From Hymenobacter sp. DG25B (lineage in GTDB: Bacteria > Bacteroidota > Bacteroidia > Cytophagales > Hymenobacteraceae): a stretch of DNA of 64,000 bases. Positions within the stretch are counted from its first letter, which is position 1. Every line of letters starts with the position of its first letter. The stretch is taken from assembly GCF_000801315.1 (NCBI RefSeq), contig NZ_CP010054.1, positions 2,728,001-2,792,000 on the forward strand. Reading direction: 5' to 3'. This document shows positions 10,089 through 26,139 of this stretch, one piece after another. Position numbers and translations under genes: made by a program. Under the pieces are notes generated by a model that was given only the letters and a program-made list of their open reading frames with translations, was not told the DNA's origin and searched no databases.

Positions 10089-10133
10089 GGCTATGGGTGA
10101 AAAAAGAACGGCGGGAAAAACAGGGTGGAAAAA

Positions 10134-10937: not shown

Positions 10938-10945
10938 GGCACAGG

Positions 10946-11704
10946 CTAGTTAAGACCCAGCAGGCCGGTTATCTGCACGGCCAGCAAATCAAGCACAAAG
11001 ATGACCAGCGACGATACCACCACCGCCGAGTTGGCCGACTGCCCTACGCCTTCGGTGCCTTTCTGGGAATGGTAGCCCTTGTAGCAGCCAATAATGCCAA
11101 TGGCAAAGCCGAAGAAGAACGTTTTAATAAAAGCCGGCAGCACATCACTGAATTCCAGCCGGTTCATGATGTTGTTCACGAACAGCGACATGCTGGTTAC
11201 GCCCTTCATGTTTATGCCGATGTAGGAGGCATACAGGGCAATCAGATCGGCCAGAATCACCAGCACCGGTATCATCAGGGTGGTGGCCATTACCCGCGTG
11301 ACTACCAGGTATTTAAACGGGTTGGTGCCCGATACTTCCATGGCATCAATCTGCTCGGTCACGTTCATAGAGCCCAGCTCGGCGCCAATGCTGGAGCCTA
11401 TTTTGCCGGCGCAGATGAGGGCTGTGATAATGGGGCCCATTTCGCGGATGATGGACAGCGCTACCATGGCCGGAATCCAGGCCTCGGCGCCAAACTTGGC
11501 CATGGTGGGCCGCGCCTGCAGGGTGAGTACAATGCCCATAATAAACCCCGTAACGCCCACCAACGGCAGCGACTTATAGCCCACTACGTAGCACTGGTGC
11601 AGGAACTCCTGCACCTCATAGCGCGGCCGAAATCCTTCGCTAAAAAACCGCCCTGTAAACCGGGAAATAGCACCGGCTTCTGCCAAAAACTCGCTGGCCT
11701 GCAT
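10946..11704 (-). CDS. mlaE: MlaE-type ABC permease
   Basis: 252-residue integral membrane permease of the MlaE/TrbE family. Conserved parts include the interfacial helix at the N-terminus (GFRPRYEVQEFLHQCYVVGY), the EQIDAMEVSG coupling motif and TRVMATTLMIPVL, with about five TM helices. It forms the membrane core of the lipid transporter with MlaF and contacts the MlaD ring. First gene of the mla operon. It lies 80 bp downstream of a universal stress protein gene on the same strand, so transcription from the stress genes might enter mla. Confidence 0.93.
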   Translation of the reverse strand: MQASEFLAEAGAISRFTGRFFSEGFRPRYEVQEFLHQCYVVGYKSLPLVGVTGFIMGIVLTLQARPTMAKFGAEAWIPAMVALSIIREMGPIITALICAGKIGSSIGAELGSMNVTEQIDAMEVSGTNPFKYLVVTRVMATTLMIPVLVILADLIALYASYIGINMKGVTSMSLFVNNIMNRLEFSDVLPAFIKTFFFGFAIGIIGCYKGYHSQKGTEGVGQSANSAVVVSSLVIFVLDLLAVQITGLLGLN

Positions 11705-11784
11705 AGTAGGCAGTTTAGCAATACACTGGATGAAAAACTCCTTCTGACTTCATCTAACCCGATGAGGATCAGCAAGCTATTTTT

Positions 11785-12687
11785 TTAATACAAAAGCCCT
11801 TCCGCCTCGCCGCCCATATCGGGGCGCTGGTCGGTGGCTGTGGTTTCAGAAACCGGAGCTTCCACCGCCGGCAACAACAGCACGGGCACCGTCGTGTGCT
11901 CCAGCACCCTGGCCGTTACGCTCCTATGAAACAGCTCGCCCAGATAGCTGCGCTGCCGGGCCACCAGCACCAGCAGCCCGGCCCGGGTGGTATGGGCGGC
12001 CTCCAGAATGCCGGCAGCAGCATGCGTGTGCTGAAAGCAGCGTAAGTCGGTGTGTTGGCTGGTTGCTACCAGCCCGCTGGTATGCACGGCCTGCAGAGCG
12101 GCGGCGCAGGCGTCGTCATCCTCTACCTCGGAAACGTGCGCCACGGTAACCGGGCACTGCAGATTCGTTAGCAATTGCTGGGCGAAGCGGCCCGCCTCGT
12201 CCAGCCGGAAGCCCTCAGCATCGGCGGCAATTATCACCTGGTGCGGCGGCGCGGTGGCCGTACTGCCCACGGGCACCACCAGCAAAGGAAAATGGGCGGC
12301 CCGCAGCAGGTCCAGCGCGGCACCGCTTACCTGGTCGGCGGAGGTGGCTTCTGCGGCCGGGCGGCCCAGCACAAACAACGCCGGCTGATAGCGCGCCATC
12401 AGGCTCCGGGCCAGGGTGGGCAGCAGGTCGGTGGCCATTTCTACGGTGGCGGGCACCGGGAGGCGGTCTACCAGCTCCTGCATGGCCTCGGCCGTAGGGG
12501 CTTCGGCATCCAGCTCGGCCTGGCGCCAGTTTTCACCGGCAAACACGTAGGGGTCGAAGAGAGACGCGCGCTTTACGTGCAGCAAGACCAGCCGGGCCTG
12601 CAGCTTAGCGGCCAGCCCGGCCGCATATTGCATAGCCTGGTTGGCCGCCGGGTAAAAGTTGGTGAGAACGATGAAGGTGAAGGACAT
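11785..12687 (-). CDS. tandem-domain universal stress protein (1)
   Basis: 300-residue protein with two Usp domains (about 1-145 and 150-285). The first begins FIVLTNFYPAANQAMQYAAG and the second HQVIIAADAEGFRLDEAGR. Usp proteins are cytoplasmic and respond to starvation, hypoxia or oxidative stress. The ATP-binding signature G-2x-G-9x-G(S/T) at the end of domain 2 is replaced by VARQRSYLGELFHRSVTARV, so canonical ATP binding is unlikely. A C-terminal tail rich in Glu and Thr extends past domain 2. Last of three consecutive minus-strand usp genes that start opposite the FNR-like regulator. Confidence 0.88.
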   Translation of the reverse strand: MSFTFIVLTNFYPAANQAMQYAAGLAAKLQARLVLLHVKRASLFDPYVFAGENWRQAELDAEAPTAEAMQELVDRLPVPATVEMATDLLPTLARSLMARYQPALFVLGRPAAEATSADQVSGAALDLLRAAHFPLLVVPVGSTATAPPHQVIIAADAEGFRLDEAGRFAQQLLTNLQCPVTVAHVSEVEDDDACAAALQAVHTSGLVATSQHTDLRCFQHTHAAAGILEAAHTTRAGLLVLVARQRSYLGELFHRSVTARVLEHTTVPVLLLPAVEAPVSETTATDQRPDMGGEAEGLLY

Positions 12688-12745
12688 GGCAGAGCAGCAA
12701 AAGGAAGCTTAAACAAGGGGCCTGGCCGGCAGAAAAGGAACGTCC

Positions 12746-13567
12746 TCAGATAACCGGCAGCACCAATACCGGCACGGGGCTGCGCTGCAGCACCTGGGCC
12801 GTTATACTCCTGTGGAACAGGCCGCCCAGCAGGCTTCTTTCCCGGGCCATAAGAACCAGCAGCTCGGCCTGCGTATCGGCGGCGGCCTGCAGAATGCCGG
12901 TGGCCGGGCTGGTGTGATGCACGGTGTACAGGCTATCCGGCGACAAATCCTTGACCAGGTGGTTGTGCCGAAGCGAGTTTACGGCCGTGCGGGCGCGGTC
13001 ATACTGCTCCTCGGTTTCCACGTGCAGCACCGAGAAGGTGGCGTGCAGCGCCTCCCACAGCGGGTGCATATCCAGGGCATTTTCCCGCAGCTTAAACGGC
13101 TCCCCATCAGCGGCCAGCGCTACGCGGGTAGGCGTGCCAGGCATGGGGGCACCTTCGGGTACCATCAGCAGGGGGTAGCGCAGGTGGCGCAGCACGGGCA
13201 GGGCCTGGTCGCCCAGCAGCTGGTCCAGAAAATCGGGAGTGGCGGCGCGCCCGCACACCAGCACCAGCGGGTGGTAGCGCGCAATGGCATCGGCCAGAGT
13301 CTCGGCCATGGTGTTTACCGAAAGCTCTACCGTAGCTGGTACGGGCAGCTCCTCGGCCAGCTTCTCCAGGGCGTTATGGGTTTCCCGCTGACTGCGGATG
13401 GCCGCCCCGGCCGGAATCATAACATACTCCGGATCCAGCAGTACATCCTGGTACAGATGCAGCAGCACTACCTGGCTTTGCAGCGGCTTCGCCAGGGCCG
13501 CTGCATAGGCCAGGGCCTGCCGCGAGGACTCAGAAAAATCAGTTAGTACCACCAGATAAGGTCCCAT
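12746..13567 (-). CDS. tandem-domain universal stress protein (2)
   Basis: 273 residues with two Usp domains, opening LVVLTDFSESSRQALAYAAA. Domain 2 ends MARERSLLGGLFHRSITAQV followed by LQRSPVPVLVLPVI, the same altered signature as in its neighbours, with Arg where ATP-binding Usps have Gly. Separated by 58 bp from the next usp gene downstream and 49 bp from the one upstream. The three may form one transcript. The role is inferred from the family and its position beside an FNR-like regulator. Confidence 0.88.
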   Translation of the reverse strand: MGPYLVVLTDFSESSRQALAYAAALAKPLQSQVVLLHLYQDVLLDPEYVMIPAGAAIRSQRETHNALEKLAEELPVPATVELSVNTMAETLADAIARYHPLVLVCGRAATPDFLDQLLGDQALPVLRHLRYPLLMVPEGAPMPGTPTRVALAADGEPFKLRENALDMHPLWEALHATFSVLHVETEEQYDRARTAVNSLRHNHLVKDLSPDSLYTVHHTSPATGILQAAADTQAELLVLMARERSLLGGLFHRSITAQVLQRSPVPVLVLPVI

Positions 13568-13616
13568 ATCAAAAAAATAAAAGAGGATAATTATTCATTG
13601 CGTCACCTTCGCCTTA

Positions 13617-14441
13617 TTAATCTGGTGAGGGCAGCACAAGGACGGGCAGCTGGCTTTCCCGGATAACCTGGGCCGTTACGCTGCGGTGAAACAGGCTCCC
13701 AAGCAGGCTGTGCCGCCGGGCAATAAGTACCAGCATATCCGCCCGCAGCTCGTGGCCCGCCTGCAGAATACCCTCGGCAACGGATGGGTATTTGAGCTCG
13801 TGCACATCAGTGGCAGTCAGGTCGGAGGCCAGGCCGCTGGCGCACACGCTCCACACCGTTTCGCGGGACTTGGGCGGCTGCGGATCGGTGGGGCTGGTGA
13901 TGTGCGCTACGGAAAGCCGCGCACCAAACCCCGCCCGCAGCTTATCTACCACGCCGGCATGGAGGCCCAGGGAAAACTCCTGCCCGTCTACCGCCAGCAG
14001 CAAATGCGTGGGCGGCTGCACTTCCCAGCCCATGGTGGGCACAATCAGCAGCGGGTAGGGCGCCGTGCGCAGCAGGTCCATTACGGTTACGCTGATCAGC
14101 TCGGTGGGCGTGGTGGCGGTACCGGGGCGGCCCAGCACCAGCATCAGGGGGTGATGATGGTGCACGGTATCGGTAACGGCATCGGGCAGGAACTCTTCGG
14201 ATATCTCTACTTCGGCCGGCACCGCCAGAGAAGTGACCAGCTTGCCCAGCACCTGCTCCAGCTGCTTTTCGCCTTGCGGCGTGTGCTGCCGGCTGTACTC
14301 ATCGGGGGAAAGCAGCCCGTCGTGGCGCAGGTGCAGCAGCACCAGGTGGGCATGCAGGGGCACGGCCAGCGTGGCCGCATACGACAGGGCGCAGTTGGAT
14401 ACCGCCAAAAAATCGGTTAAAACAACTAGGGAGGCACTCAT
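13617..14441 (-). CDS. tandem-domain universal stress protein (3)
   Basis: 274 residues with two Usp domains. The ATG at 14441 (MSASLVVLTDFLAVSNCALS) starts exactly at the first beta strand; an in-frame upstream start at 14471 would add ten residues with no Usp similarity. Domain 2 ends IARRHSLLGSLFHRSVTAQV, again lacking the glycine-rich ATP loop. First gene of the minus-strand usp run, and divergent from the FNR-like regulator across a 305-bp intergenic region. That layout suggests control by the regulator, although no clean FNR box was found in that gap. Confidence 0.88.
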   Translation of the reverse strand: MSASLVVLTDFLAVSNCALSYAATLAVPLHAHLVLLHLRHDGLLSPDEYSRQHTPQGEKQLEQVLGKLVTSLAVPAEVEISEEFLPDAVTDTVHHHHPLMLVLGRPGTATTPTELISVTVMDLLRTAPYPLLIVPTMGWEVQPPTHLLLAVDGQEFSLGLHAGVVDKLRAGFGARLSVAHITSPTDPQPPKSRETVWSVCASGLASDLTATDVHELKYPSVAEGILQAGHELRADMLVLIARRHSLLGSLFHRSVTAQVIRESQLPVLVLPSPD

Positions 14442-14746
14442 GGCACGAGAAAGTAAACAAGGAAAGCGCAAGCAGAACCCGGAAAAACCACCCTGCTACC
14501 CCGCTCCGGCGGCTAAGCAACGCGGACACTGCCACCGGCTCACGATGGCCCCAACGCACTAGGTCTGACCGGGGCAGAGCCCTGGCATAACATTGTGAAT
14601 ATCGGTGATTTTATTGTACATTAAGCAAAGCTACTGGCACTAATTTCACGTTGCCCTACGCCCTTTGTACCTGGGTATTCAGTATAAAAGTGACGCCTTG
14701 ATAGTGGATTTCCTCCGGCCCCCTTTGGCCTTTGCAGCTTTAGGCT

Positions 14747-15451
14747 ATGAAACGCTTTGTTCCACCCTCCTGCCCAGAATGCCCCAGCCGCCATAGTTGC
14801 CCTATGTCCTGCTGCCAGCCGGAGGAGCTGGAGGTGCTTTCGCTGATGAAAACGGCGCAGGTGTATCAGCGGGGGCAGGTTATTTTTCAGGAGGATGGCC
14901 GCCCCATGGGGCTGTACTGCATTCATTCGGGCAAAATAAAGGTGATGAAGGTGGGCGGCGACGGCAAGGAGCAGATTATCCGGCTGGCCCGGGAGGGTGA
15001 TTTGCTGGGCTATCGGGGCCTGTTGGCGGGCGGCAGTCACTCGGCCTCGGCCGTGGCGCTGGAAGAATCGGTGGTGTGCTGCATTCCCCGCACGGAGTTT
15101 TTCCGGCTTGTGGAGCAGAACGTGCGCTTTGCCGCTTCCCTGATGCAGCTGCTATCCAAAGCCCTGGGCGATGCCGAAGAGCGAATGCTGCACCTGGCGT
15201 ACAAGCCCGTGCGGGAGCGGCTGGCCGAAGCCCTGCTGCTGCTGGCGCGCACGTATCAGCAGCATAATCAGGAGCCCGTAAGCATTCCTATTTCCCGCGA
15301 CGACCTGGCTTCCCTGGTGGGTACCGCCAAGGAAACTACCAGCCGGTTTGTATCAGAGTTCCGGGATGAAGGCGTGTTGCAGGCGCGCGGCAGCCTGATT
15401 ACCATCCTGAATCCGGCCCGCCTGGCCGAAATTTCCACCCGCTACGACTAG
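14747..15451 (+). CDS. CRP/FNR-family regulator with N-terminal cysteine cluster
   Basis: 234-residue transcription factor. The N-terminus is CPECPSRHSCPMSCC, a dense Cys cluster like the one that holds the oxygen-labile [4Fe-4S] cluster in FNR. It is followed by a cNMP-fold effector domain (about residues 35-140, YCIHSGKIKVMKVGGDGKEQ) and a C-terminal winged helix (ISRDDLASLVGTAKETTSRF) in which the recognition helix E-xxSR matches FNR rather than CRP. Known FNR proteins act as anaerobic activators at TTGAT-N4-ATCAA sites. Near-matches to that site occur at 15715-15750 and 19555-19568. The gene is divergent from three usp genes and begins the stress block. The cluster assignment is inference from cysteine spacing. 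Confidence 0.88.
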   Translation: MKRFVPPSCPECPSRHSCPMSCCQPEELEVLSLMKTAQVYQRGQVIFQEDGRPMGLYCIHSGKIKVMKVGGDGKEQIIRLAREGDLLGYRGLLAGGSHSASAVALEESVVCCIPRTEFFRLVEQNVRFAASLMQLLSKALGDAEERMLHLAYKPVRERLAEALLLLARTYQQHNQEPVSIPISRDDLASLVGTAKETTSRFVSEFRDEGVLQARGSLITILNPARLAEISTRYD

Positions 15452-15872
15452 CCTGCCCGGCTTTGAATTTTTCCGCCTGCTATGGTCCTCTTTCCGGGTG
15501 GCAAACCACGGCTATCCGCACCGGGGGTGGGGCAGGCAGCGAGTGGCACAGGGAACAGGGCGTTTTCATGGAGAGGTACTGCAAGAGAAGCCAATTCAGC
15601 CGGCCGGCTACCCAAACGTAGCCGCTTAGCCAAGTTGTAGCAGCGGGGCAAAGCCGGGGTAGATAACCAGCAGTTGCTGTGTAACGAAGATGCCCATTTC
15701 CTATAGTTTATACATTGATAACTATCACCTTACAAAGTGATATTCATCAGCTTTTCCCTTACCGTCAGCAGCAGAAATTAGGGCCCTGTTTGTATGCCGT
15801 GCCCGGACAGCTGCTGGTTCCTGCTGAGCAGAACCTTGCCGGGTGCGGCACCCCGCCCCTACCTTTTGGCGC
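15452..15872. other. 421-bp intergenic region between the regulator and the cNMP-fold gene
   Basis: No convincing gene is seen here. A 63-codon frame from 15715 has no ATG and no recognisable similarity. The only structure that stands out is the pair of FNR-box-like palindromes at 15715-15750. The rest has ordinary base composition and no terminator with a T-run after the regulator stop at 15451. Confidence 0.6.
15715..15750. promoter_or_regulatory. two tandem FNR-box-like palindromes
   Basis: Site 1 at 15715-15728 reads TTGATAACTATCAC, matching 9 of 10 defined bases of TTGAT-N4-ATCAA. Site 2 at 15737-15750 reads GTGATATTCATCAG, keeping the inner TGAT-N4-ATCA. Their centres are 22 bp apart, two helical turns. 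They lie upstream of the cNMP-fold, AMP-phosphorylase and PRPP-synthetase genes and directly downstream of the FNR-like gene. Binding by that regulator is inferred. Confidence 0.6.
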
Positions 15873-16241
15873 ATGCTGCTACCCTGGCTTCACCTTCCGC
15901 GCATGAAAACGCAGCGTCTGGTCTGCGCGGCCGGCCACTGCCTGTACCGGGCCGGCCAGCCGGCCGAACATGTGTACTGGCTGGAGCAGGGCGCCGTGGG
16001 CATCTGGTCCCGAAGCCCCACGGGGCTGTTTCAGGTGGTATGCGGACCGGCGCTGCTGGGCAGCGAGCTTTTGGTAGCCAGCCGGTGCCGGCATACGGTG
16101 CTGGCCCTGCAGCCCTGCCAGCTCACGCTGCTTAACCAGAATGGCCTCCGAAAAATAATTCGGGCCCACCCGCGGCTGCTTCTCTGGCTGCTCTGCCAGT
16201 TCAGCCAGGAAACCATACTCACTCTTCCGCACTATGAATAG
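15873..16241 (+). CDS. stand-alone cNMP-binding-fold protein without HTH
   Basis: About 122 residues covering only the beta-roll effector domain of the CRP/FNR family: CLYRAGQPAEHVYWLEQGAV, then GPALLGSELLVASRCRHTVL, then a C-terminal helix like the CRP dimerisation helix. No DNA-binding domain follows; the stop is at 16239-16241, overlapping the next start by 8 bp. The Arg/Glu pair that binds cAMP phosphate in CRP is not obvious. It may be a ligand sensor, a regulator of the adjacent enzymes, or an inhibitor that forms heterodimers with the FNR-like protein; these are guesses. The start could be ATG 15873 or 15903. I prefer 15873 because the extra residues resemble helix A of CRP. Confidence 0.65.
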   Translation: MLLPWLHLPRMKTQRLVCAAGHCLYRAGQPAEHVYWLEQGAVGIWSRSPTGLFQVVCGPALLGSELLVASRCRHTVLALQPCQLTLLNQNGLRKIIRAHPRLLLWLLCQFSQETILTLPHYE

Positions 16242-17772
16242 CCCTGATCTGCTTCCACCACCGCCCGTTGTTCAACCAGCTCCCGGGCAGTTGCGCCTGC
16301 GCCGCATGGGCATCGATACCCGCAATGAGCACGTGGTTTTCCTGCGCTCTGACTCCCCCGTTTGCCACGCGGAAGGGTTCCGGGCCTTGTCGCGGCTGAA
16401 GGTGACGGCGAACGGGCATACCGTTATTGCCTCCCTGAATACTATTGTTGGCAATAGTTTGCTGGAGCCGCACGAAGTAGGTGTATCCGAGGTAGTGTGG
16501 GAACACCTGCGCGCCCGCCCTGGCGAAGAAGTGCACCTTATGCACCTACCACCCCTGGAATCCATGCACCTGGTGCGCGCCAAAATGTACGGCCGCCGCC
16601 TGCTGCCGGAAGACTACCGGGCCATTATGCTGGATGTAGCAGCCGAGCGGTATTCCAACGTGGAGCTGGCCGCTTTTGTAACTGCCTGCGTGCGCGACGT
16701 CACCCTGGAAGAAACCATTAGCCTCACACAGGCCATGATTGCGGCCGGGCGGCAGCTGCACTGGCCGGCCCACGTGGTAGCCGATAAGCATTCCATTGGC
16801 GGCCTGCCCGGCAACCGCACCACGCCCGTTGTGGTAGCCATTGTGGCGGCAGCCGGGCTGCTCATGCCCAAAACCTCTTCCCGGGCCATTACCTCCCCGG
16901 CCGGCACCGCCGATACCGTGGAAGTGCTGACTTCCGTAAACCTAACCCTGCGCCAGATGCGCCGCGTGGTGGCCCAGCACGGTGCCTGTCTGGCCTGGGG
17001 CGGCGCTATGCAGCTAAGCCCCGCCGATGATATTTTAATACGGGTGGAGCGCGCGCTGGATATTGATAGTCCGGCCCAGATGGTGGCCTCCGTGCTATCC
17101 AAGAAAGTAGCCGCCGGCGCTACCCACGTGGTAATTGATGTACCGGTAGGCCCCACTGCCAAGGTACGCAGTCTGGAAGAAGCGCAGGAAATGGTAGCCT
17201 TATTCCGGCAGGTGGGGCAAGCGGTAGGGCTGAAAGTAGAAGTGATGCTGACCGATGGCAGCCAGCCCGTGGGGCGCGGCATTGGCCCGGCCCTGGAAGC
17301 CCGCGACGTACTGGCCGTGCTGCAAAACAGCGCCGACGCTCCCCCCGATCTGCGGGAAAAATCTCTGCACCTGGCCGCCACGCTGCTGGAGCTTACGGAG
17401 CACGCGGCCACGGGTACCGGCGCCGCGGAGGCGGCCATGCTGCTTTCTTCGGGCAAAGCCTGGCAGAAGTTTCAGGACATTTGCCAGGCCCAGGGCGGCC
17501 TGCACTTTCCCCGGCCGGCGGCCCTGCACTGGGACATGGTAGCCAGCCGCCCGGGCCTGGTTCTCAACATAGACAACCGCCGCCTGGCTACGCTGGCTAA
17601 GCTGGCCGGCGCCCCCTGGAAGGCCAGCGCCGGCATAGACCTGCACGTGCGCCTGCGCCAGCCCGTACAGGCCGGGCAGCCGCTGTTTACGCTTTATGCC
17701 GAGAGCCCCGGCGAGCTAACCTACGCCCGCGATTACCTGCACGACTCCCCGGAACCTATCATAGCTTACTGA
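16234..17772 (+). CDS. AMP phosphorylase / thymidine-phosphorylase-family enzyme
   Basis: 512 residues, longer than classical DeoA (about 440). It has an extra N-terminal domain of about 90 residues (LRLRRMGIDTRNEHVVFLRS) as in archaeal AMP phosphorylases. The active-site region VADKHSIGGLPGNRTTPVVV and SSRAITSPAGTADTVEVL carries the residues of the nucleoside phosphorylase II family. Archaeal members split NMP plus phosphate into base and ribose 1,5-bisphosphate. Bacterial members are often annotated simply as thymidine phosphorylase family. Its start overlaps the cNMP-fold gene by 8 bp and its TGA overlaps the next ATG, so the three are translationally coupled. No ribose-1,5-bisphosphate isomerase or RubisCO is present in the window. 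Confidence 0.85.
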   Translation: MNSPDLLPPPPVVQPAPGQLRLRRMGIDTRNEHVVFLRSDSPVCHAEGFRALSRLKVTANGHTVIASLNTIVGNSLLEPHEVGVSEVVWEHLRARPGEEVHLMHLPPLESMHLVRAKMYGRRLLPEDYRAIMLDVAAERYSNVELAAFVTACVRDVTLEETISLTQAMIAAGRQLHWPAHVVADKHSIGGLPGNRTTPVVVAIVAAAGLLMPKTSSRAITSPAGTADTVEVLTSVNLTLRQMRRVVAQHGACLAWGGAMQLSPADDILIRVERALDIDSPAQMVASVLSKKVAAGATHVVIDVPVGPTAKVRSLEEAQEMVALFRQVGQAVGLKVEVMLTDGSQPVGRGIGPALEARDVLAVLQNSADAPPDLREKSLHLAATLLELTEHAATGTGAAEAAMLLSSGKAWQKFQDICQAQGGLHFPRPAALHWDMVASRPGLVLNIDNRRLATLAKLAGAPWKASAGIDLHVRLRQPVQAGQPLFTLYAESPGELTYARDYLHDSPEPIIAY

Positions 17773-18659
17773 TGCCGCCGCTCCTCCTGGCCCTGCCCGG
17801 CAACGAAGCCCTTACCGGCGAGCTGGCCCACCTGCTGGGCACCACCGTGGCCGACTACACCCTGCGCTCCTTCCCCGATGGCGAAACCTACGTGCAGCTG
17901 CACACCCCGGTAGCCGGCCGCACCCTGGTACTGATATGTACGCTGGCGCAGCCTAATCCGCAGCTGCTGCCGCTGTACTTTCTGGCTGAAACCGCCCGCG
18001 ACCTGGGGGCCCACCGCGTGTATCTGCTGGCTCCTTATCTGGCTTATATGCGGCAGGATGCCCGCTTTCAGCCGGGTGAGGGAATTACCTCCGCCTACTT
18101 TGCCCGGCTGCTTTCCCATTTTCTGGATGGCCTGCTTACGGTAGCCCCCCACCTGCACCGCTGGCACCAGCTCCGGCAAATTTACCGCATACCCACGGAG
18201 GCCCTGCACGCTACCAGTGCTATGGTGCAGTACGTGCGCCGGCAGGTGCACCGCCCCGTTCTGGTGGGCCCCGATAGTGAAAGCAAGCAATGGGTAGCGG
18301 CCATAGCCCGGGAAGCTGGTTGCCCCTACCTCGTGCTCCGCAAGCAGCGCCACGGCGACCGAAGCGTGACCATAGCCCCGCCGGATGTAGCCCGCTTTCA
18401 ACACCATACGCCGGTAGTGGTAGATGACATTGTTTCTACGGGACGCACTATGATAGCCACCGTGCAGCACCTGCGCCAAGCCGGGCTGCCCGCCCCGGTA
18501 TGCCTGGGAATTCACGCGCTTTTTGTGGGCGCGGCTTATGATGAGCTGCTGGCGGCCGGGGCCGGGCACGTAGTTACGTGCAACACGGTGCCGCACCCTT
18601 CCAACGGCATCAATCTGGCTCCTTTACTGGCAGAAGCCTTAACCCGGCTGCCCGGGTAA
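17772..18659 (+). CDS. archaeal-type ribose-phosphate pyrophosphokinase (PRPP synthetase) homologue
   Basis: 295 residues. Prs motifs in order: SFPDGETYVQL, the ATP-binding segment APYLAYMRQDARFQPGE, the HLHR segment, the flexible catalytic loop with Lys and Arg (LRKQRHGDRSVTI), and the PRPP loop VVVDDIVSTGRTM. The catalytic loop resembles archaeal class III enzymes (LEKxRxxDRxVxI) more than housekeeping bacterial Prs, and the protein is about 20 residues shorter than bacterial Prs. Normal Prs makes PRPP from ribose 5-phosphate and ATP. The start overlaps the AMP phosphorylase stop by one base (TGATG), suggesting linked function in ribose-phosphate salvage. The true substrate may differ from that of housekeeping Prs. 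Confidence 0.83.
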   Translation: MPPLLLALPGNEALTGELAHLLGTTVADYTLRSFPDGETYVQLHTPVAGRTLVLICTLAQPNPQLLPLYFLAETARDLGAHRVYLLAPYLAYMRQDARFQPGEGITSAYFARLLSHFLDGLLTVAPHLHRWHQLRQIYRIPTEALHATSAMVQYVRRQVHRPVLVGPDSESKQWVAAIAREAGCPYLVLRKQRHGDRSVTIAPPDVARFQHHTPVVVDDIVSTGRTMIATVQHLRQAGLPAPVCLGIHALFVGAAYDELLAAGAGHVVTCNTVPHPSNGINLAPLLAEALTRLPG

Positions 18660-19475
18660 TTACTCCCCGATGGCCGGCACTATCAGCACGGGCAGGCGGC
18701 TTTGCAGCAGCACCTGGGCGGTTACACTGCGGTTAAACAGCTTCCCCAGAAAGCTGCGCGGGCGGGCTACTAGCACCACCATATCATAGTCAGCCGGGTT
18801 GGCGGCCTGCAGAATACCCGCGGCGGGGTCGGGGTGGCGAATGGCTTTGCTTTGGACGGCTGGTAGGTCAATAGTGAGTCCGGTCTGGGTTAAGGTATTC
18901 AGGGCCCGGGCGGCGGTTTCATTCTCTGTTACGATATGCAGCACGGTAAGCTCTGCCTGCAGCGCCTGAAAAAGGTCGTGCAGCAGGTCGTTGCAGTTGC
19001 CCAAACGGAAAGGCTCGCCATCCAGGGCTACCAGCACGCGGCGCGGGCGGGCGGTAGTAGGCACGTGGGCCGGCAGCACCAGCATGGGGTATGGCCTGGT
19101 CCGTAGAATTTCCAGGGACGTGGTGGTCACCAGCTCTTCGGGCAAATTCTCCACGTCGGGGCGGCCCAGCACCAGCAGACCGGGGTGGTGCTGCTCAATG
19201 GCCTCGGCCACCACCTCCGCCACCCGCCCCTTGCGCACTTCCGTTACGGCGGGTACCGGCAGCTCCTCGGCCAGCCGGCTCAGGGCCACCCGCGCCGACT
19301 CCTGCGACTGGCCGGAAACCGCCCCGGTAAACCGCTCGGCATCCAGCAGAGAAGTGCGGCGCACGTGCAGTAAAACCAGGTTGGCCTGCAGGGCGCTGGC
19401 GATGTTGGCGGCATAGTCCAGGGCACGGTTGGCCGCCGGGTAAAAATCAGTGAGTACCAGCAGAGAAGCAGCCAT
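18660..19475 (-). CDS. tandem-domain universal stress protein (4)
   Basis: 271 residues with two Usp domains, opening SLLVLTDFYPAANRALDYAA and ending VARPRSFLGKLFNRSVTAQV plus LLQSRLPVLIVPAIGE. It shares the altered C-terminal signature of the three other usp genes. Its stop abuts the convergent PRPP synthetase stop with no gap. It is transcribed away from the MBL nuclease gene across a 198-bp region that contains an FNR-like box at 19555-19568. Confidence 0.88.
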   Translation of the reverse strand: MAASLLVLTDFYPAANRALDYAANIASALQANLVLLHVRRTSLLDAERFTGAVSGQSQESARVALSRLAEELPVPAVTEVRKGRVAEVVAEAIEQHHPGLLVLGRPDVENLPEELVTTTSLEILRTRPYPMLVLPAHVPTTARPRRVLVALDGEPFRLGNCNDLLHDLFQALQAELTVLHIVTENETAARALNTLTQTGLTIDLPAVQSKAIRHPDPAAGILQAANPADYDMVVLVARPRSFLGKLFNRSVTAQVLLQSRLPVLIVPAIGE

Positions 19476-19554
19476 ATGCAGCGGGAGTGAAAAAATGATT
19501 GCGCAAAGAAGATGGTTTCCTCTTTCGTTCAGTATGATAACAAATTAATATAAG

Positions 19555-19568
19555 TTGATAAATATCAT
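19555..19568. promoter_or_regulatory. FNR-box-like palindrome in divergent promoter region
   Basis: TTGATAAATATCAT matches 9 of the 10 defined bases of TTGAT-N4-ATCAA. It is centred at 19561.5 between the divergent usp(4) and MBL nuclease genes. On the plus strand TACCTTCC at 19592-19599 is a near -7 element at the distance expected for activation from -41.5. A further partial site (TATGATAACA) lies about 20 bp upstream. Confidence 0.6.
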
Positions 19569-19673
19569 AGAATTTCGCCTGCCCCGCTGCTTACCTTCCG
19601 GCCACTCATTTGGTCCACGCCTGCCTGCCGGCAATAGCGGGCTGGTTTGCCAGGAGCCCAAAACCTGCCCGCT

Positions 19674-21071
19674 ATGAACGTTAGCATCACCTTCCTGGGC
19701 GCCGCCCAAACCGTAACGGGCTCCAAGTATGTACTCACGTTCAGCCACGGACCACTCCAGCAGCAGCTTATGGTAGACTGTGGCCTGTTCCAGGGTCTGA
19801 AGGAGCTGCGCCTGCGCAACTGGGATGTCCTGCCCATCAGCCCCGCCCAGCTGGATACCGTGGTGCTTACCCACGCCCACATCGACCACAGCGGCTACCT
19901 GCCCCGCCTGGTAAAAGAGGGCTTCCGGGGCCGTATTCTCTGCACCGAGGCTACCCGCGACCTGCTGGAAATAATGCTACTGGACTCCGCCAAGCTGCAG
20001 GAGGAAGAAGCTGCCTTTGCCAATGCCAAAGGCTATTCTAAGCACCACCCGGCGCTGCCGCTCTACACCACCGAGGACGTGCTGCAGGTACTGCCCCTGG
20101 TGGTGGGCTGCCCCTATAATACGCCCGTGCAGGCAATAAACCAGGTTTCCGTAATCTTCCGGGATGCGGGCCACATTCTGGGGTCGGCTATGGTGGAGAT
20201 GCTGGTGCAGGGCGAGCAGCAGGAGAAAAAGCTGGTATTTTCCGGCGACCTGGGCCGCTACGACAACCCCGTGATGTATGACCCCACCGCCATTACCCAG
20301 GCCGATGTGCTGCTGGTAGAATCTACCTACGGCGACCGGAACAACCGCGTGCCCGACCCCGAGGCCGAGCTGGCGGCCGCCGTAAACCAGGCCCTGGGGC
20401 GCGGTGGTGTACTGGTTATTGCGGCTTTTGCCGTGGGCCGCACCCAAACCATGCTGTATTATCTCAAGCGCCTGCGGCAGCAGAACCGGGTACCCCGCGT
20501 GCCGGTGTATGTAGACAGCCCCATGGGCATTCGGGTATCGGGGCTGTACCCGCGGCATCCGGGGCAGCACCGGCTGGGCCACGGCAATATTTTCGATTTT
20601 GACGGGCTGCGCTTTGTTTCTGATGTACCGGAATCCAAAAGCCTGAATCTGCTGGAGCAGGGCGCCATCATTATTTCGGCCAGTGGCATGTGTACCGGCG
20701 GGCGCATTGTGCACCACCTGCACCACCGCCTGCCCCGCCCCCAGGACACCGTTTTGCTGATTGGTTTTCAGGCCGATGGCACCCGGGGCCGCCGCCTGCT
20801 GGAAGGTGAGCCGCAGATTAAAATGTACGGCGACATGGTGCCCGTGCTTTGCCACGTAGAGCAGCTCAACGGCTTCTCGGCCCACGCCGACCGCGACGAG
20901 CTGCTGCGCTGGCTGGGCAACTTTGAGCAGGCTCCCAAGCGTACGTTCATTGTGCACGGCGAGCCCCTGAGCTCCGCCGCGCTGGCCCAGGCCGTGCAGG
21001 ACCAGCTGGGCTGGCCGGCGCCCATTCAGCCCCGGTATCTGGAAACCTATTCGCTTTTTGAAGGCATTTGA
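19674..21071 (+). CDS. MBL-fold / beta-CASP ribonuclease
   Basis: 465 residues. Zinc-binding motif LTHAHIDHSGYLPRL (HxHxDH), a later GHILGSA His, SGDLGRYDNP, and the beta-CASP domain with GVLVIAAFAVGRTQ. The RNA-specificity segment contains GFQADGTRGRRLLEG, VEQLNGFSAHADRDEL and IVHGE. These are the marks of the CPSF73/YSH1-like RNA exonuclease and endonuclease group, so it probably degrades or processes RNA in the cytoplasm. The ATG at 19674 begins at the first strand (MNVSITFLGAAQTVTGSKY); the upstream in-frame start adds nine residues. First gene of a plus-strand run with DUF1003, the P-type ATPase and the L,D-transpeptidase. Confidence 0.92.
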   Translation: MNVSITFLGAAQTVTGSKYVLTFSHGPLQQQLMVDCGLFQGLKELRLRNWDVLPISPAQLDTVVLTHAHIDHSGYLPRLVKEGFRGRILCTEATRDLLEIMLLDSAKLQEEEAAFANAKGYSKHHPALPLYTTEDVLQVLPLVVGCPYNTPVQAINQVSVIFRDAGHILGSAMVEMLVQGEQQEKKLVFSGDLGRYDNPVMYDPTAITQADVLLVESTYGDRNNRVPDPEAELAAAVNQALGRGGVLVIAAFAVGRTQTMLYYLKRLRQQNRVPRVPVYVDSPMGIRVSGLYPRHPGQHRLGHGNIFDFDGLRFVSDVPESKSLNLLEQGAIIISASGMCTGGRIVHHLHHRLPRPQDTVLLIGFQADGTRGRRLLEGEPQIKMYGDMVPVLCHVEQLNGFSAHADRDELLRWLGNFEQAPKRTFIVHGEPLSSAALAQAVQDQLGWPAPIQPRYLETYSLFEGI

Positions 21072-21111
21072 TTTTGCTTCCTGCCCCTGGAAAGAAACCC
21101 CCTACTCTGGT

Positions 21112-21828
21112 ATGCCTACCGCGCCCACGTTCATCAGTGACTGCTCCGGCCGGGAGTTTCCCGAGGCCGACCGGGTGAGTGGGCGCACCGTGCGGCAGCC
21201 CATTCTGGAGCTCATTCAAAAAGACCAGCCCAGGTTTTCCGAGGACGACTACCTGGCCCTCGCGGAGCTGAACGAGTACCGGCGCAAATACATCCAAAAC
21301 TACCTGCTAAAGGAGGTGGGCCAGCTCTCCGAGCTGGAGCAAACCGTGCTCAGCAACCTGCAGGCCCAGGCTACGCTCACGGACAAGCTGGAGGACGACG
21401 TTGAGCCCCTGACGCTGGGGCAGCGCCTGGCCGATGGCATGGCATCGTTTGGGGGCAGCTGGACGTTTATCCTCTCATTCTGCTTTTTTCTGATTTGCTG
21501 GATTATTCTGAACGGTTTCTGGCTGGCCAACCGCGGCTTCGATCCTTACCCTTTTATTCTGCTCAACCTGCTGCTCTCGTGTCTGGCGGCCATGCAGGCC
21601 CCCATTATTATGATGAGCCAGAACCGGCAGGAGGATAAAGACCGGCAGCGCGCCCGCAAAGACTACATGATTAACCTGAAATCGGAGCTGGAAATCCGGA
21701 TGCTGCACGAAAAGCTAGACCACCTCATTATGCATCAGCAGCAGGATATGTTGGAAATTCAGCAGATTCAGGTAGAAATAATGAATGATATCCTGAAGAA
21801 AATAGAAGGATCCAAGCTGGTCACCTGA
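21112..21828 (+). CDS. DUF1003 membrane protein
   Basis: 238 residues. The DUF1003 core is GQRLADGMASFGGSWTFILS followed by two TM helices with the short loop (LANRGFDPYPFILLNLLLSC) and QAPIIMMSQNRQEDKDRQRA at the cytoplasmic face. A C-terminal helix (EIRMLHEKLDHLIMHQQ) follows. About 90 N-terminal residues contain CSGREFPEADRVSGRTVR, also typical of this family. The function of DUF1003 is unknown. It lies 40 bp after the MBL gene and 34 bp before the ATPase, pointing to one operon. A TTG start at 21058 overlapping the MBL gene is possible but less likely. Confidence 0.88.
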   Translation: MPTAPTFISDCSGREFPEADRVSGRTVRQPILELIQKDQPRFSEDDYLALAELNEYRRKYIQNYLLKEVGQLSELEQTVLSNLQAQATLTDKLEDDVEPLTLGQRLADGMASFGGSWTFILSFCFFLICWIILNGFWLANRGFDPYPFILLNLLLSCLAAMQAPIIMMSQNRQEDKDRQRARKDYMINLKSELEIRMLHEKLDHLIMHQQQDMLEIQQIQVEIMNDILKKIEGSKLVT

Positions 21829-21862
21829 CTTTGCTCCTTCCCTCGCACTTCCTCCTGATGCT

Positions 21863-24553
21863 ATGAAACCGGCCAGCGCTCCTACGGCTTCGTTCCCGCC
21901 CCCTTCCACCGATTTGCAGCTGGGGCTGACATTGGCGGAGGCGCAACGGCGGCGGCAGCTGCATGGCCCCAACATTCTGTCCGGTAGCAGCCAGGAGCCC
22001 ATCTGGCTGCTGGTGTGGCGGCAGTTCCGGAGCCTTACCGTGCTGGTGCTCATTGCGGCAGCCATTTTTTCCTGGGTGATGGGCGATACCGCCGAGAGCA
22101 TAGCTATTGCCGCGGTGGTGCTCATCAATTCGGTTATCGGACTGTGGCTGGAGTGGCAGGCCCGGGTATCCATGGCGGCTTTGCACCAGCTGGATGTGCC
22201 CAAAGCCCGCGTAGTGCGCAACGGGCAGCACCAAACCATTCCCGCCCCGGAGCTGACCATTGGCGATGTGCTGCTGGTGGAAGCCGGCGACGTGCTGCCG
22301 GCCGATGCCGAAGTACACGAAGCCCGGCAGCTCAACGTAAACGAATCCGCCCTTACGGGAGAGTCCTTGCCGGTGGCCAAGCTGCCCGGCGCATTGGGCA
22401 CCCCCGGGCAGCTGGCTGATGCGCCAACCTGCCACCTCTACAAGGGTACGGCTGTGGTAAACGGCAATGGCCGCGCTATTGTAACGGGCATTGGCATGAA
22501 TACCGAGCTGGGCCGCATTGCGCAAATGGTGCAAACCGCCGGGCACACCGCCACGCCGCTCGAAATCAAGATAAACCAGCTGGCCCGGCAGCTCATTCTG
22601 CTCACGCTGGGCCTGGCGCTGCTGTACCTGCTGATTGGGCTGCTGCAGGGCCGGGATGCCGTAATGATGGTGAAAATGGCCATTATTCTGGCTATTGCGG
22701 CCATTCCGGAAGGGCTTTCCATTGTGGCTACCCTGGCCCTGGCGCATGGTATGCTGCGCCTGGCCCGGCAGCACGTTATCGTCAAAAAGCTGTCGGCGGT
22801 GGAAACGCTGGGCAGCACCAGCGTCATCTTTACCGATAAAACCGGCACGCTCACCCAAAATCAGATAGCCGTAAATACCATCTGGCTACCCAGTGGCCGC
22901 GCCGAGGTGCACCTCTCCGAAACGCCCCCCTTAACGGTGGCAACCGGCGACGACGCGGTGCTGGCCTCGCCCCAGTTCAAGCAGCTGCTGCGCGTGGCCG
23001 TTTCCTGTAACAACGCCCCCTACCAGCCCGGACAGCGGCCCAACCCGGCCCTGGGCGACCCGTTGGAAATTGCCCTGAATGAGCTGGCCTTCGCCTCGCC
23101 GCTGCCCGAGCAAAGTGCCTGTCCCCGCCTGGATGAAAAGGCTTTCAACTCGGAAACCCGCCTGATGGCCACCCTGCATCAGGAACCGGACGGCCAGTAT
23201 TTTGTGGCCGTGAAAGGCGCCGCTGAAGATGTGCTGCTCCACTGCCACTACCGCTGGGATGCCGCCGGACTACAGCCGCTATCGGAAATTGAAAAGAAGG
23301 AATGGATTGCCCGCGCGGAGCAGCTGGCCCAAACCGGTCTGCGCACGCTGGGCTTTGCCAGTGCCCTGGCCGGCACCCACCCCGGCACCGATTTTGTGCA
23401 CCACCTGGCTTGGGTAGGCCTGATTGGCTTTCTGGATCCGCCGCGGCTGGAGGTGCTGCCGGCCCTGCAGGCCTGCCGGCAGGCGGGCATTCGGGTAATT
23501 ATGGTAACCGGCGACCACCCGGCCACGGCCCGCACGGTGGCGGCTAAAGTAGGCCTGGTATCCAGCGCAGAAACCCTGGTAGTAAGCGGCCCGGCCCTGA
23601 AACCCCTTGACCAACTGACCACGGCCGAAAAAGAGGAGCTGTACGCCTGCACCGTTTTTGCCCGCGTGAGCCCGGCCCAAAAGCTGGATTTGATTTCGCT
23701 CTACCAGCAGCGCGGCGATATTGTGGGCATGACCGGCGACGGGGTGAATGACGCGCCGGCGCTGCGCAAAGCGGATATTGGCATTGCCATGGGGCTGCGG
23801 GGCACGCAGGTAGCCGGGGAGGCTGCGGATATGGTGCTGCAGGATGATGCCTTTGCCTCCATAGTGGCGGCCATTGGGCAGGGGCGCGTCATTTTCGCCA
23901 ATATCCGTACCTTCATTCTCTACCTTACTTCCTGCAACCTGAGCGAAATTCTGCTGGTGACGGGCGTGGGCCTGCTGCATAACTCGGTGCCTCTGCTGCC
24001 CCTGCAAATTCTGTTTCTGAACATGGTGACGGATGTATTCCCGGCCCTGGCGCTGGCCGTGGGCACGGGCCACCCGCACCTGATGAAACAGCCGCCGCGC
24101 CCCACGCAATTGCCCCTGCTCACCGGCACAGATTGGAAAACCGGCCTGCTGTATGCCTCAGCCCTGGTGCTGGGCCCGGTGGCTATTTATTACTACAGCT
24201 GGGAGGTGCTCCGGCTTTCTCCGGCGGTGTGCAACAATATTATTTTTTATGGCATGGCCCTGGGCCAGCTGCTGCACGTGTTCAACTTTTCTACCGACCC
24301 CCGCAGCTTTTTTCGGTCTGAAATTACCCGTAACCCCTACATCTGGCTGGCACTGGGCATTTGCTTGGCGCTGTTTGTGGCCTCGTATTACGTGCCCTCG
24401 TTGCGGCGGCTGCTGGGCGTTCAGCCCTTCACTTCCCTCATGGCGGGCCTGATAGTAGCCGCCGGCCTTATTCCCGTACTGCTGGTGCGGTTAGGGTATG
24501 GCCTGCTGGCCCTGATTCCTTCCTCTACCCCAGAAAAATCGGCTTCCTCCTGA
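21863..24553 (+). CDS. P2-type cation-transporting ATPase (Ca2+-ATPase-like)
   Basis: 896 residues, full length. Actuator-domain motif NESALTGESLPVAK; ion-binding TM4 AIAAIPEGLSIVATL, with the PEGL typical of Ca2+ and Na+/K+ pumps; phosphorylation site VIFTDKTGTLTQN; hinge MTGDGVNDAPALRKADIGIA. A PMA/Ca2+-type C-terminal domain with about six TM helices includes LQILFLNMVTDVFPALAL. It pumps a cation, perhaps Ca2+ or Mg2+, across the inner membrane using ATP. CtpF-like pumps of this class belong to hypoxia regulons in mycobacteria, which fits the surrounding stress genes. Its TGA overlaps the next ATG. Confidence 0.92.
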   Translation: MKPASAPTASFPPPSTDLQLGLTLAEAQRRRQLHGPNILSGSSQEPIWLLVWRQFRSLTVLVLIAAAIFSWVMGDTAESIAIAAVVLINSVIGLWLEWQARVSMAALHQLDVPKARVVRNGQHQTIPAPELTIGDVLLVEAGDVLPADAEVHEARQLNVNESALTGESLPVAKLPGALGTPGQLADAPTCHLYKGTAVVNGNGRAIVTGIGMNTELGRIAQMVQTAGHTATPLEIKINQLARQLILLTLGLALLYLLIGLLQGRDAVMMVKMAIILAIAAIPEGLSIVATLALAHGMLRLARQHVIVKKLSAVETLGSTSVIFTDKTGTLTQNQIAVNTIWLPSGRAEVHLSETPPLTVATGDDAVLASPQFKQLLRVAVSCNNAPYQPGQRPNPALGDPLEIALNELAFASPLPEQSACPRLDEKAFNSETRLMATLHQEPDGQYFVAVKGAAEDVLLHCHYRWDAAGLQPLSEIEKKEWIARAEQLAQTGLRTLGFASALAGTHPGTDFVHHLAWVGLIGFLDPPRLEVLPALQACRQAGIRVIMVTGDHPATARTVAAKVGLVSSAETLVVSGPALKPLDQLTTAEKEELYACTVFARVSPAQKLDLISLYQQRGDIVGMTGDGVNDAPALRKADIGIAMGLRGTQVAGEAADMVLQDDAFASIVAAIGQGRVIFANIRTFILYLTSCNLSEILLVTGVGLLHNSVPLLPLQILFLNMVTDVFPALALAVGTGHPHLMKQPPRPTQLPLLTGTDWKTGLLYASALVLGPVAIYYYSWEVLRLSPAVCNNIIFYGMALGQLLHVFNFSTDPRSFFRSEITRNPYIWLALGICLALFVASYYVPSLRRLLGVQPFTSLMAGLIVAAGLIPVLLVRLGYGLLALIPSSTPEKSASS

Positions 24554-26139
24554 TGCGGTATCTGTTTTTTTGCTTGTTGGGTTTGCTGCTGGCCGATATG
24601 CGCCAGTGTTCCTCGCCCCCGGGCGCCAACGGGCAATCTGCCGCCGCTTCAGAAGCCAATACCATAGCCGCAGCAAAGCCACCAGAGCCTATTGGACCCT
24701 ACATACAGGCTCTGCTGGATACCACGGCCGCCGGCAGTACCCCGGCCGCCGATGCCCGTCTGCAACTGCTGGCCGGACCGGCCGTGCGCCGCTTTTACGC
24801 CGAGGCCCAACCCGCCTGGACGCTGCCCGCCGACAGCCTGGCGCCGCCGGCCCGCACTGCCCTGCAGCTCCTGGCCCACGCCGATGACTTTGGCCTGCTG
24901 CGCACCGACTACCACTGGCCCCGCCTGCAGGCCCTGCGCGATTCGCTGGCCCGCCGCAGCACTGCCCGCCAGCAGGCCCGCCTGGAGGTTTACCTGACCG
25001 ATGCCCTGCTGCACCTCATGCGCGACCTGCACCGCGGCAAGCTGCACCCCTACACGCTTTCGGCCCGGGAAATTGCGGCTAAAAAACCGCTGCCGGTAGA
25101 GGTGCTATTGCGCCAGGGCGTGCAGGCGCAGCAGGTGCGGGAAACGGTGGAGGCCTGCCAGCCCCGCAACCGGGAATACCGGCAGCTGCAGCGGGCCCTG
25201 CAGGCCTGGCTCCGGCGCCCGGTTGCCTCTAACCCTGACTCGGCGGCCGTGCACCAAAGCCGGTTTCGGCAGGTGGCCATTAATCTGGAGCGGTGGCGCT
25301 GGGGCACCTTCCCCGACTCCGAATATGTGCTTATTAATCTGCCGGCGTATGAGCTGTATCTGGTGAAGCAGGACAGCCTACAGCGGCGCCATCATGTTAT
25401 TGTGGGTAAGCCCATTACACCCTCCCCCACGCTCAGCAGCCGCATCACGCACTTCACTCTGGCCCCCGACTGGCACGTACCCAACTCCATTGCCACCAAA
25501 GAGCTGTTACCCATGCTGCGCCGCAACCCGGCCGCCTTCGTCAACAATAATTACAGCATTTATAACCGCCAGGGCACGCCCGTAAACCCGTATCAGGTAA
25601 ACTGGTACCGGGTATCGGCCCAGAATTTTCCGTATACCATCCGGCAGTCATCGGGCTGCGATAATGCATTGGGTAACATTGTGTTCCGCTTTCCCAGTCC
25701 TTATTCCGTTTACCTGCACGATACGCCCATGCGCGGGGCATTTGCCCTGCCGGTGCGGGCGCTCAGCCATGGCTGCATCCGGCTGGCGCAGCCCATGCAG
25801 CTGGCCGCCTACCTGCTGCGCCGCGACGGCAAGCAGCTGCGCCTGCCCTCCGAAAGTGAGTGTGCCCGCCAAACCCAACCCAAAGACATCTGGCTTCGGC
25901 GCCCCCTGCCCATTCACATACGCTACCTGACATGCGCCGCCGAACAGGGCCAGCTCCGCTTTTACCCCGATATCTACCGCCGCGACGCCAGCATACGGAA
26001 AGCATTTTTTGGGCAGTCAAGTTCGCTTTACTCTTTTGAACGCCGGACCACAAAAAAGCCCCGGCCATGGCCGGGGCTTTGTCTAAACAAGCACACATTA
26101 CCCATGTACTTACCACGGGCACTCCCTAAAAATGGGTAG
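24553..26139 (+). CDS. L,D-transpeptidase of the LdtD/YcbB type, possibly C-terminally frameshifted
   Basis: 528 residues with a hydrophobic N-terminus (RYLFFCLLGLLLADM), a large scaffold region (about 50-270) as in E. coli LdtD, and the YkuD catalytic domain with HVPNSIATKELLPMLRRNPA and the active-site motif SHGCIRLAQPMQLA (Cys near residue 407). Such enzymes make 3-3 crosslinks in peptidoglycan in the periplasm, often under stress or in dormancy. The start overlaps the ATPase stop (TGATG). The last 33 codons run through a perfect terminator hairpin at 26055-26080 and into the next gene. One extra T in the T6 run at 26005-26010 would instead give a stop at 26037-26039, just before the hairpin. 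Confidence 0.88.
   Translation: MRYLFFCLLGLLLADMRQCSSPPGANGQSAAASEANTIAAAKPPEPIGPYIQALLDTTAAGSTPAADARLQLLAGPAVRRFYAEAQPAWTLPADSLAPPARTALQLLAHADDFGLLRTDYHWPRLQALRDSLARRSTARQQARLEVYLTDALLHLMRDLHRGKLHPYTLSAREIAAKKPLPVEVLLRQGVQAQQVRETVEACQPRNREYRQLQRALQAWLRRPVASNPDSAAVHQSRFRQVAINLERWRWGTFPDSEYVLINLPAYELYLVKQDSLQRRHHVIVGKPITPSPTLSSRITHFTLAPDWHVPNSIATKELLPMLRRNPAAFVNNNYSIYNRQGTPVNPYQVNWYRVSAQNFPYTIRQSSGCDNALGNIVFRFPSPYSVYLHDTPMRGAFALPVRALSHGCIRLAQPMQLAAYLLRRDGKQLRLPSESECARQTQPKDIWLRRPLPIHIRYLTCAAEQGQLRFYPDIYRRDASIRKAFFGQSSSLYSFERRTTKKPRPWPGLCLNKHTLPMYLPRALPKNG
26055..26080. terminator. intrinsic terminator at the end of the stress block
   Basis: Perfect 26-nt palindrome AAAGCCCCGG-CCATGG-CCGGGGCTTT, preceded by a further A-run (26052-26054) and followed by TG. 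It can act in both directions, between the L,D-transpeptidase and the convergent small gene ending at 26126. It lies inside the annotated L,D-transpeptidase frame, which is unusual. Confidence 0.8.

Follow-up and report, generated by a model that had tools for sequence, protein, structure and literature searches.

A candidate low-oxygen response island with a linked FNR-type regulator in Hymenobacter sp. DG25B

Gene content and organisation of the locus

A 64-kb stretch of the 4.36 Mb genome of Hymenobacter sp. DG25B (contig NZ_CP010054.1, positions 2,728,001 to 2,792,000; hereafter the window) was analysed in the present study, with a focus on a gene cluster at window positions 9087-26139. 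We favour, with moderate confidence, the view that this cluster is a low-oxygen response island run by its own iron-sulphur (Fe-S) FNR-type regulator, and as such the equivalent in Bacteroidota of the micro-oxia regulons of FixK2 type that Proteobacteria have. Gene content was established from gene calls together with Pfam and NCBIfam scans of the window proteins. At the centre of the cluster, the regulator gene (fnr, 14747-15451, forward strand) is followed on the same strand by an operon of three genes. The first encodes a 122-amino-acid protein of cyclic-nucleotide-binding fold without a helix-turn-helix (HTH) domain (cNMP protein, 15873-16241; PF00027, 42.9 bits in the frame from 15843), which gave profile matches to solved cyclic-nucleotide-binding domain (CNBD) proteins and shares 67% and 81% identity with its two relatives. 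The other two encode a nucleoside-monophosphate/thymidine phosphorylase family protein (16234-17772) and a ribose-phosphate diphosphokinase, or phosphoribosyl pyrophosphate (PRPP) synthetase, of the PRK07199 type (17772-18659; NF005537, 400 bits). A universal stress protein (Usp) gene, usp4, follows on the reverse strand (18660-19475), and divergent from it lies a second forward unit encoding a metallo-beta-lactamase (MBL)/beta-CASP RNase (19674-21071; Pfam Beta-Casp and RMMBL), a DUF1003 protein (21058-21828; PF06210, start codon uncertain), a Ca2+-like P2-type cation ATPase (21863-24553) and an L,D-transpeptidase (LDT) with a YkuD domain (24553-26139).

To the left of fnr, the reverse strand carries usp3 (13617-14441; start codon picked by eye within the open reading frame), usp2 (12746-13567) and usp1 (11785-12687), followed by mlaE (10946-11704), mlaF (10134-10937) and mlaD (9087-10088), recognised by the Pfam families MlaE, ABC_tran and MlaD, respectively. 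Each of the four usp genes encodes two Usp domains (PF00582), so that four of the nine Usp proteins of the genome (8 of 16 Usp-domain matches) sit within 7.6 kb. The genes from usp1 to mlaE-mlaF-mlaD share one strand with gaps of 8-80 bp and mlaEFD is syntenic in the relatives' loci L047 and L048; mlaEFD (9087-11704) is probably the distal part of the usp3-usp2-usp1 unit, and lies left of the range covered by the initial annotation of this DNA (13617-26139). All genes named in that annotation are present with their domains, but of the four usp genes only usp3 and usp4 fall inside its range, the other two being located to its left at 11785-13567. The overlapping gene starts that it reported were borne out by an 8-bp overlap between the cNMP and phosphorylase genes and by TGATG junctions at phosphorylase/PRPP synthetase and at ATPase/LDT.

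The phosphorylase scored 667 bits against the broad family NF003338 (cut-off 434) and 488.5 bits against the AMP-phosphorylase equivalog TIGR03327, which is below the cut-off of 535; its nearest solved relative is 4ga5. The previously proposed AMP-phosphorylase/PRPP-synthetase pair thus stands as a pair, but the identity of its first member as an AMP phosphorylase is not established. The nuclease (HAHIDH, SGD, ISASGM and SAHAD), the pump (PEGL, NLSE, NMVTD and DKTGT) and the transpeptidase (SHGCIR) retain what we take to be their catalytic motifs, including in the last case the catalytic SHGC[IV]R and upstream His of YkuD L,D-transpeptidases (HDTPMRGAFALPVRALSHGCIR). The nearest solved relative of the nuclease is TTHA0252, and the same protein scored 384 bits against a model of the type VII CRISPR nuclease Cas14, for which the cut-off is 800.

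The linked regulator and its candidate target sites

The regulator was aligned to an Aliivibrio-type FNR (9qlt) and to 22 other Hymenobacter sequences. It has Cys residues at positions 9, 12, 18, 22, 23 and 111/112, of which 9, 12, 18 and 111 fall on the four positions that we take to be the cluster ligands of the Aliivibrio-type protein, those of E. coli FNR being C20, C23, C29 and C122. This agrees with the earlier description of an FNR-like regulator with an N-terminal Cys cluster. Across the 23 aligned Hymenobacter sequences, the N-terminal CxxC is present in 22 and the fourth, C122-equivalent Cys in all 23; the third has the E. coli spacing in four and is absent in one, while in the remaining 18 a Cys or CC stands further on by four to five residues. 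The recognition helix carries KETTSR, corresponding to the ExxSR of FNR regulators. Three proteins with a CRP/FNR-type HTH scored above the Pfam cut-off in the genome, and the N-terminal Cys cluster is confined to the linked regulator; of the other two, one is a response-regulator fusion with a single Cys and one has no cluster at its N-terminus. Based on these differences, any Fe-S FNR that the organism has is most likely the linked regulator. At locus L083 (G000:C3:161428), the gene for what appears by eye to be a di-iron repair protein of RIC/ScdA type is followed by a CRP/FNR gene whose product has no N-terminal Cys cluster. Several Hymenobacter genomes (L177-L192) have an FNR orthologue that adjoins a 2-oxoglutarate-dehydrogenase-E2-like gene (named by eye), with small paralogous proteins starting like MAYSxNxPAGK in the same neighbourhoods.

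Candidate target sites were scored as mismatches to TTGAT-N4-ATCAA. Two boxes, TTGATAACTATCAC (15715-15728, one mismatch) and TTGATAAATATCAT (19555-19568), are the sole matches in the 64 kb that deviate at no more than one position, and both are intergenic within the cluster, the first preceding the cNMP gene and the second lying between the divergent usp4 and beta-CASP genes. A further box, GTGATATTCATCAG (15737-15750, two mismatches), stands beside the first at a centre-to-centre distance of 22 bp and is identical in three species. None of the three boxes is perfect. All three are retained in two relatives (G135 and G143) although the surrounding DNA has drifted, and the FNR-like boxes noted earlier in two promoter regions are therefore confirmed and conserved in three Hymenobacter species. 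In the three intergenic alignments, the number of sites that stay within two mismatches in every species was three, against a maximum of one in 20,000 column shuffles, a null that is optimistic because shuffling breaks runs of conserved columns and is hence generous to the boxes. When the letters of the three intergenic stretches of the window were shuffled 20,000 times, 2 shuffles gave as many as two matches of one mismatch or fewer, and 71 gave three matches of two mismatches or fewer. The two boxed promoters head units totalling eight genes. At L048, the second-promoter box is retained in the absence of the beta-CASP and DUF1003 genes and is now situated between usp4 and the ATPase gene.

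The intergenic region between usp3 and fnr has no box with at most two mismatches that is conserved in all three species, the nearest being TTATTGTACATTAA with three mismatches, and fnr and usp3-usp2-usp1-mlaEFD are thus not assignable to the regulon by motif. The same region contains a block of ~30 bp, around 14590-14625, that is near-identical in the three species, suggesting that some conserved control is likely.

The phosphorylase-PRPP synthetase pair

The phosphorylase was found above cut-off in 23 of 150 Hymenobacteraceae genomes, in 3 of 395 genomes of a phylum sample (own genome included, with one further partial match below cut-off) and in 102 of 299 genomes of a sample from the Polaromonas family. 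It also matched 115 plasmid records (E 1e-60), 46 of which are typed as conjugative. Conservation of the neighbourhood therefore extends beyond a single genome, but narrowly: the phosphorylase occurs in three of 120 Hymenobacter genomes, including G135, in which the entire cluster is present with its order kept, and G143, whose locus is without PRPP synthetase, beta-CASP, DUF1003 and LDT but retains the boxes, fnr, the four usp genes and the genes for the cNMP protein, phosphorylase and ATPase.

A set of 67 distinct loci was compared, comprising the window, 24 other Hymenobacteraceae (including a Pontibacter plasmid), three other Bacteroidota (one with a partial gene), two Polaromonas, seven plasmids and 30 Burkholderiaceae. 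This set is not random, as the seven plasmid records were picked for spread from the 115 and the Burkholderiaceae are the 30 best-scoring. The PRPP synthetase gene adjoins the phosphorylase gene on the same strand in 63 of the 67 (exceptions L048, L087, L088 and L098), and a beta-CASP gene adjoins the pair in 12, no Hymenobacter among them; L052 and L073 are one Pontibacter plasmid place and were counted once (raw counts 64 and 13 of 68). The pair, at some loci with beta-CASP, recurs in three phyla and on plasmids. Plasmids carrying the pair with beta-CASP (L073-L079) belong to Bacteroidota, Chlamydiota and alpha-, beta- and gammaproteobacteria. A stretch of ~13 kb in Polaromonas sp. A23 encodes a beta-CASP protein, HemN, an FNR with CSNCNLRELC (a CxxCx5C cluster), a Usp and both enzymes of the pair, and the DNA that separates hemN from fnr contains a perfect FNR box. 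In a tree of 63 rows, the three Hymenobacter phosphorylases group alone, apart from those of other Hymenobacteraceae, with long branches and unsure deep joins.

The archaeal pathway of AMP phosphorylase, ribose-1,5-bisphosphate (R15P) isomerase and RuBisCO, as far as the available accounts describe it, shares with the Hymenobacter locus the phosphorylase family and its N-terminal extension, 4ga5 being the nearest structure. It differs in that the Hymenobacter phosphorylase falls under the AMP-phosphorylase cut-off and is partnered by a PRPP synthetase, and R15P isomerase was found in none of 12 genomes (E 0.001, own included) in a search that did not extend to RuBisCO or PhnN, with the control matching in 9 of 14 genomes. 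Phosphoketolase was likewise absent from all 19 Hymenobacteraceae carriers of the phosphorylase searched (own included; four further carriers of the family sample were left out); of the other ten genomes searched, one Polaromonas and three Hymenobacter that lack the phosphorylase had it. In the 12 and 19 genomes covered, the fate of the sugar is thus explained by neither a phosphoketolase route nor the RuBisCO route of archaea. A route from RNA to acetyl phosphate, which had been prompted by phosphoketolase and acetate kinase genes near the pair on a Criblamydia plasmid, was rejected here on the absence of phosphoketolase from these 19 carriers. An Acidovorax plasmid encodes an 806-amino-acid "xylulose 5-phosphate 3-epimerase" (phosphoketolase length) near acetate kinase and near the pair, and Bradyrhizobium phosphoketolase and acetate/propionate kinase are, in the available part of the report, reduced without FixK2 (PMC9104804).

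The sequence of the HTH-less cNMP protein suggests a possible role as nucleotide sensor or FNR partner. A broader proposal, which we regard as speculative and improbable, is that the pair, joined at some loci by the beta-CASP RNase, has spread horizontally as an oxygen-regulated system of RNA and nucleotide scavenging in bacteria that lack R15P isomerase. It would convert RNA to nucleoside monophosphates and these to base and ribose-1,5-bisphosphate, with some further sink for this sugar, and in Hymenobacter would be tuned by the small CNBD protein from the first gene of the FNR-boxed operon, either sensing a nucleotide or pairing with and restraining FNR.

Known low-oxygen systems and competing explanations

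A literature search found no paper joining Hymenobacter, FNR and universal stress, and literature on phosphorylase and low oxygen included two Bradyrhizobium papers among the results. Statements on published systems here refer to the portions of the cited reports that were available. In Bradyrhizobium diazoefficiens, transcripts of bll3117, bll3116 and bll3115, named as thymidine phosphorylase family protein, ribose-phosphate pyrophosphokinase and MBL fold hydrolase, rose 5.1, 7.7 and 15.4 fold in micro-oxia, and the MCE, ABC and MlaE genes bll6063-6065 and the usp gene bll6069 were also induced (PMC6515984). Deletion of fixK2 reduced bll3117 by 6.6 fold and bll3115 by 30.6 fold, and a FixK2 box, ATGATCTGGGTCAA, precedes the predicted bll3117-bll3115 operon (PMC9104804). 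The two systems thus resemble each other in placing a phosphorylase, a PRPP synthetase and an MBL hydrolase under a CRP/FNR protein, and in the usp and MCE/MlaE genes that are induced by micro-oxia in Bradyrhizobium. They differ in phylum, and in that no linked fnr, DUF1003, ATPase or LDT was seen in the available descriptions of the FixK2 system, all of which are present in Hymenobacter. The FixK2 triad forms one predicted operon, whereas in Hymenobacter the phosphorylase and PRPP synthetase share a unit and the beta-CASP gene heads a separate one (19674), behind the opposite-strand usp4. To our knowledge FixK2 is not an Fe-S sensor. The kind of regulon is already known; new here are a Bacteroidota version with its own FNR, the extra partners and the split arrangement.

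The DosR regulon of Mycobacterium tuberculosis includes a P2-type ATPase, and DosR is a LuxR-type two-component regulator. The linked regulator here is of the CRP/FNR type, unlike that of DosR control, and many Usps are part of the DosR regulon (PMC6127331), as they are of the Hymenobacter locus. The lxa locus of Burkholderia cenocepacia is similar in content, with six Usps and a 51-kDa MBL protein (BCAM0300) that rise at low oxygen (PMC6127331). It differs in its size of ~50 genes, among them those for a heat shock protein, BON and phosphofructokinase, and in that the available parts of these reports name neither a phosphorylase nor a PRPP synthetase (PMC6127331, PMC9104464); its candidate regulator, BCAM0049, is encoded elsewhere, whereas the Hymenobacter regulator is linked. 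A Pfam scan of 20 window proteins gave no Hsp20, BON or phosphofructokinase, the Usps being the part of the lxa-type gene set that is present.

An oxygen-linked regulon is likely. As oxygen falls, the FNR cluster would persist and the dimer would bind boxes of the TTGAT-N4-ATCAA type, a binding predicted from their sequence. Bound FNR would raise transcripts of the cNMP-phosphorylase-PRPP synthetase operon and of the divergent usp4 and beta-CASP-DUF1003-Ca-type ATPase-LDT pair; the divergent usp3-usp2-usp1-mlaEFD unit, which has no clear box, may follow. RNA and nucleoside monophosphates would then be degraded by phosphorolysis, conserving the energy of the glycosidic bond as ribose phosphate, and PRPP would be maintained for re-capture of bases, while Usp proteins, ion pump, lipid transport and cell wall would be adjusted for survival free of respiration. 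What the sequence shows is the gene content, the overlaps, the ligand positions and the conserved boxes, from which oxygen sensing, DNA binding, activation and the nucleotide route are inferred; dormancy and wall remodelling, which the initial annotation proposed, are putative. The initial annotation had gathered these genes into one oxygen regulon: the regulator ligands, the conserved boxes at the promoters of eight genes and the FixK2-dependent operon of like-named genes speak for it, and fnr and usp3-usp2-usp1-mlaEFD, which are without a conserved box, fall outside that support. The locus offers a candidate oxygen response in Bacteroidota that is self-contained and can be tested, and it draws attention to an enzyme pair that many bacteria share and that may serve them in a role other than the archaeal RuBisCO route. 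If this pair recycles nucleotides once respiration stops, RNA breakdown would be tied to oxygen-free survival in very different bacteria.

A number of observations weigh against a low-oxygen island. Regulator orthologues (identity of at least 49%) occur in 77 of 120 Hymenobacter genomes, from a list counted by hand, while the phosphorylase occurs in three, and the neighbourhoods of 20 such orthologues contained, within 10 kb, no phosphorylase, six usp, one mlaE and one LDT. The idea that the pair is regularly linked to usp was rejected, as usp was found within 10 kb in 0 of 20 Burkholderiaceae loci, and seven of the eight plasmid stretches read have annotated copper or heavy-metal genes close to the pair. 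As to motif counts, the window has 19 matches with at most two mismatches versus 11.3 expected (reached in 2 of 100 shuffles), the genome has 77 with at most one mismatch versus 56 for the reversed control, and the strict TTG-N8-CAA, to which none of the three boxes conforms, is rarer in the window than by chance (11 versus 20). Of 30 genome matches whose surroundings were read (16 first listed and 14 picked), nine are intergenic and the other 21 fall within DNA that is probably coding, and a genome-wide FNR regulon called by motif was rejected on these grounds. The motif alone is therefore weak, and the evidence lies in the placement of the boxes and their conservation. The Bradyrhizobium genes were matched to the locus by product name, and the three bll genes are marked neither as direct FixK2 targets nor as bacteroid-induced (PMC6515984). 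B. cenocepacia H111 without lxa survives anoxia (PMC9104464), and Usp transcripts fell under oxygen limitation in stationary B. thailandensis cells (PMC3966863).

The two perfect boxes of the genome comprise one in coding DNA and one intergenic (L002, G000:C1:2377581), 35 bp before a fatty-acid-hydroxylase gene.

The regulon may consist of the two boxed promoters only, with usp3-usp2-usp1-mlaEFD and fnr as independent neighbours, a serious possibility that nevertheless falls short of being probable. It accords with the lack of a conserved site in the usp3-fnr gap, and is opposed by the near-identical block in that gap and by the micro-oxia induction of like-named Mla and usp genes in Bradyrhizobium (PMC6515984). 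We consider it rather doubtful that the genes are general or metal-stress cargo, separately mobile and settled by an FNR gene, that answer to several signals of which oxygen is one or none. The plasmid-borne pair, often with beta-CASP, the metal genes beside it, the patchy phosphorylase distribution and the isolated Hymenobacter branch of the tree are all as such cargo would predict. Against it stand the conserved boxes exactly at the module promoters and the loss of expression of the Bradyrhizobium operon without FixK2 (PMC9104804). The FNR proteins of the three phosphorylase carriers are moreover 91-96% identical versus at most 62% elsewhere in the genus; the regulator may move along with the cargo, or the carriers may simply be close kin.

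It is unlikely that the regulator, although FNR-like, senses nitric oxide, peroxide or redox state, or that it represses at its boxes. The regulator is characterised by Cys positions, its third-ligand spacing deviates in 18 of 23 Hymenobacter sequences and that ligand is absent in one, and the boxes are placed relative to genes rather than transcription starts, all of which would accommodate such a role; the agreement with FNR at each of the four ligand positions, and in the target motif, speaks against it. Chance closeness of unrelated genes, which could account for the partners missing in one of the two relatives, is highly improbable given the overlapping junctions, the gene order, which one other species keeps in full and another for the most part, and the adjacency of the pair in 63 of the 67 loci.

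Elsewhere in the window, the carbamoyl-phosphate synthase large subunit had no match in G143, two in G135 and, in the DG25B genome, two of equal score at window positions 44418-47654 and at G000:C1:1222935-1223183.

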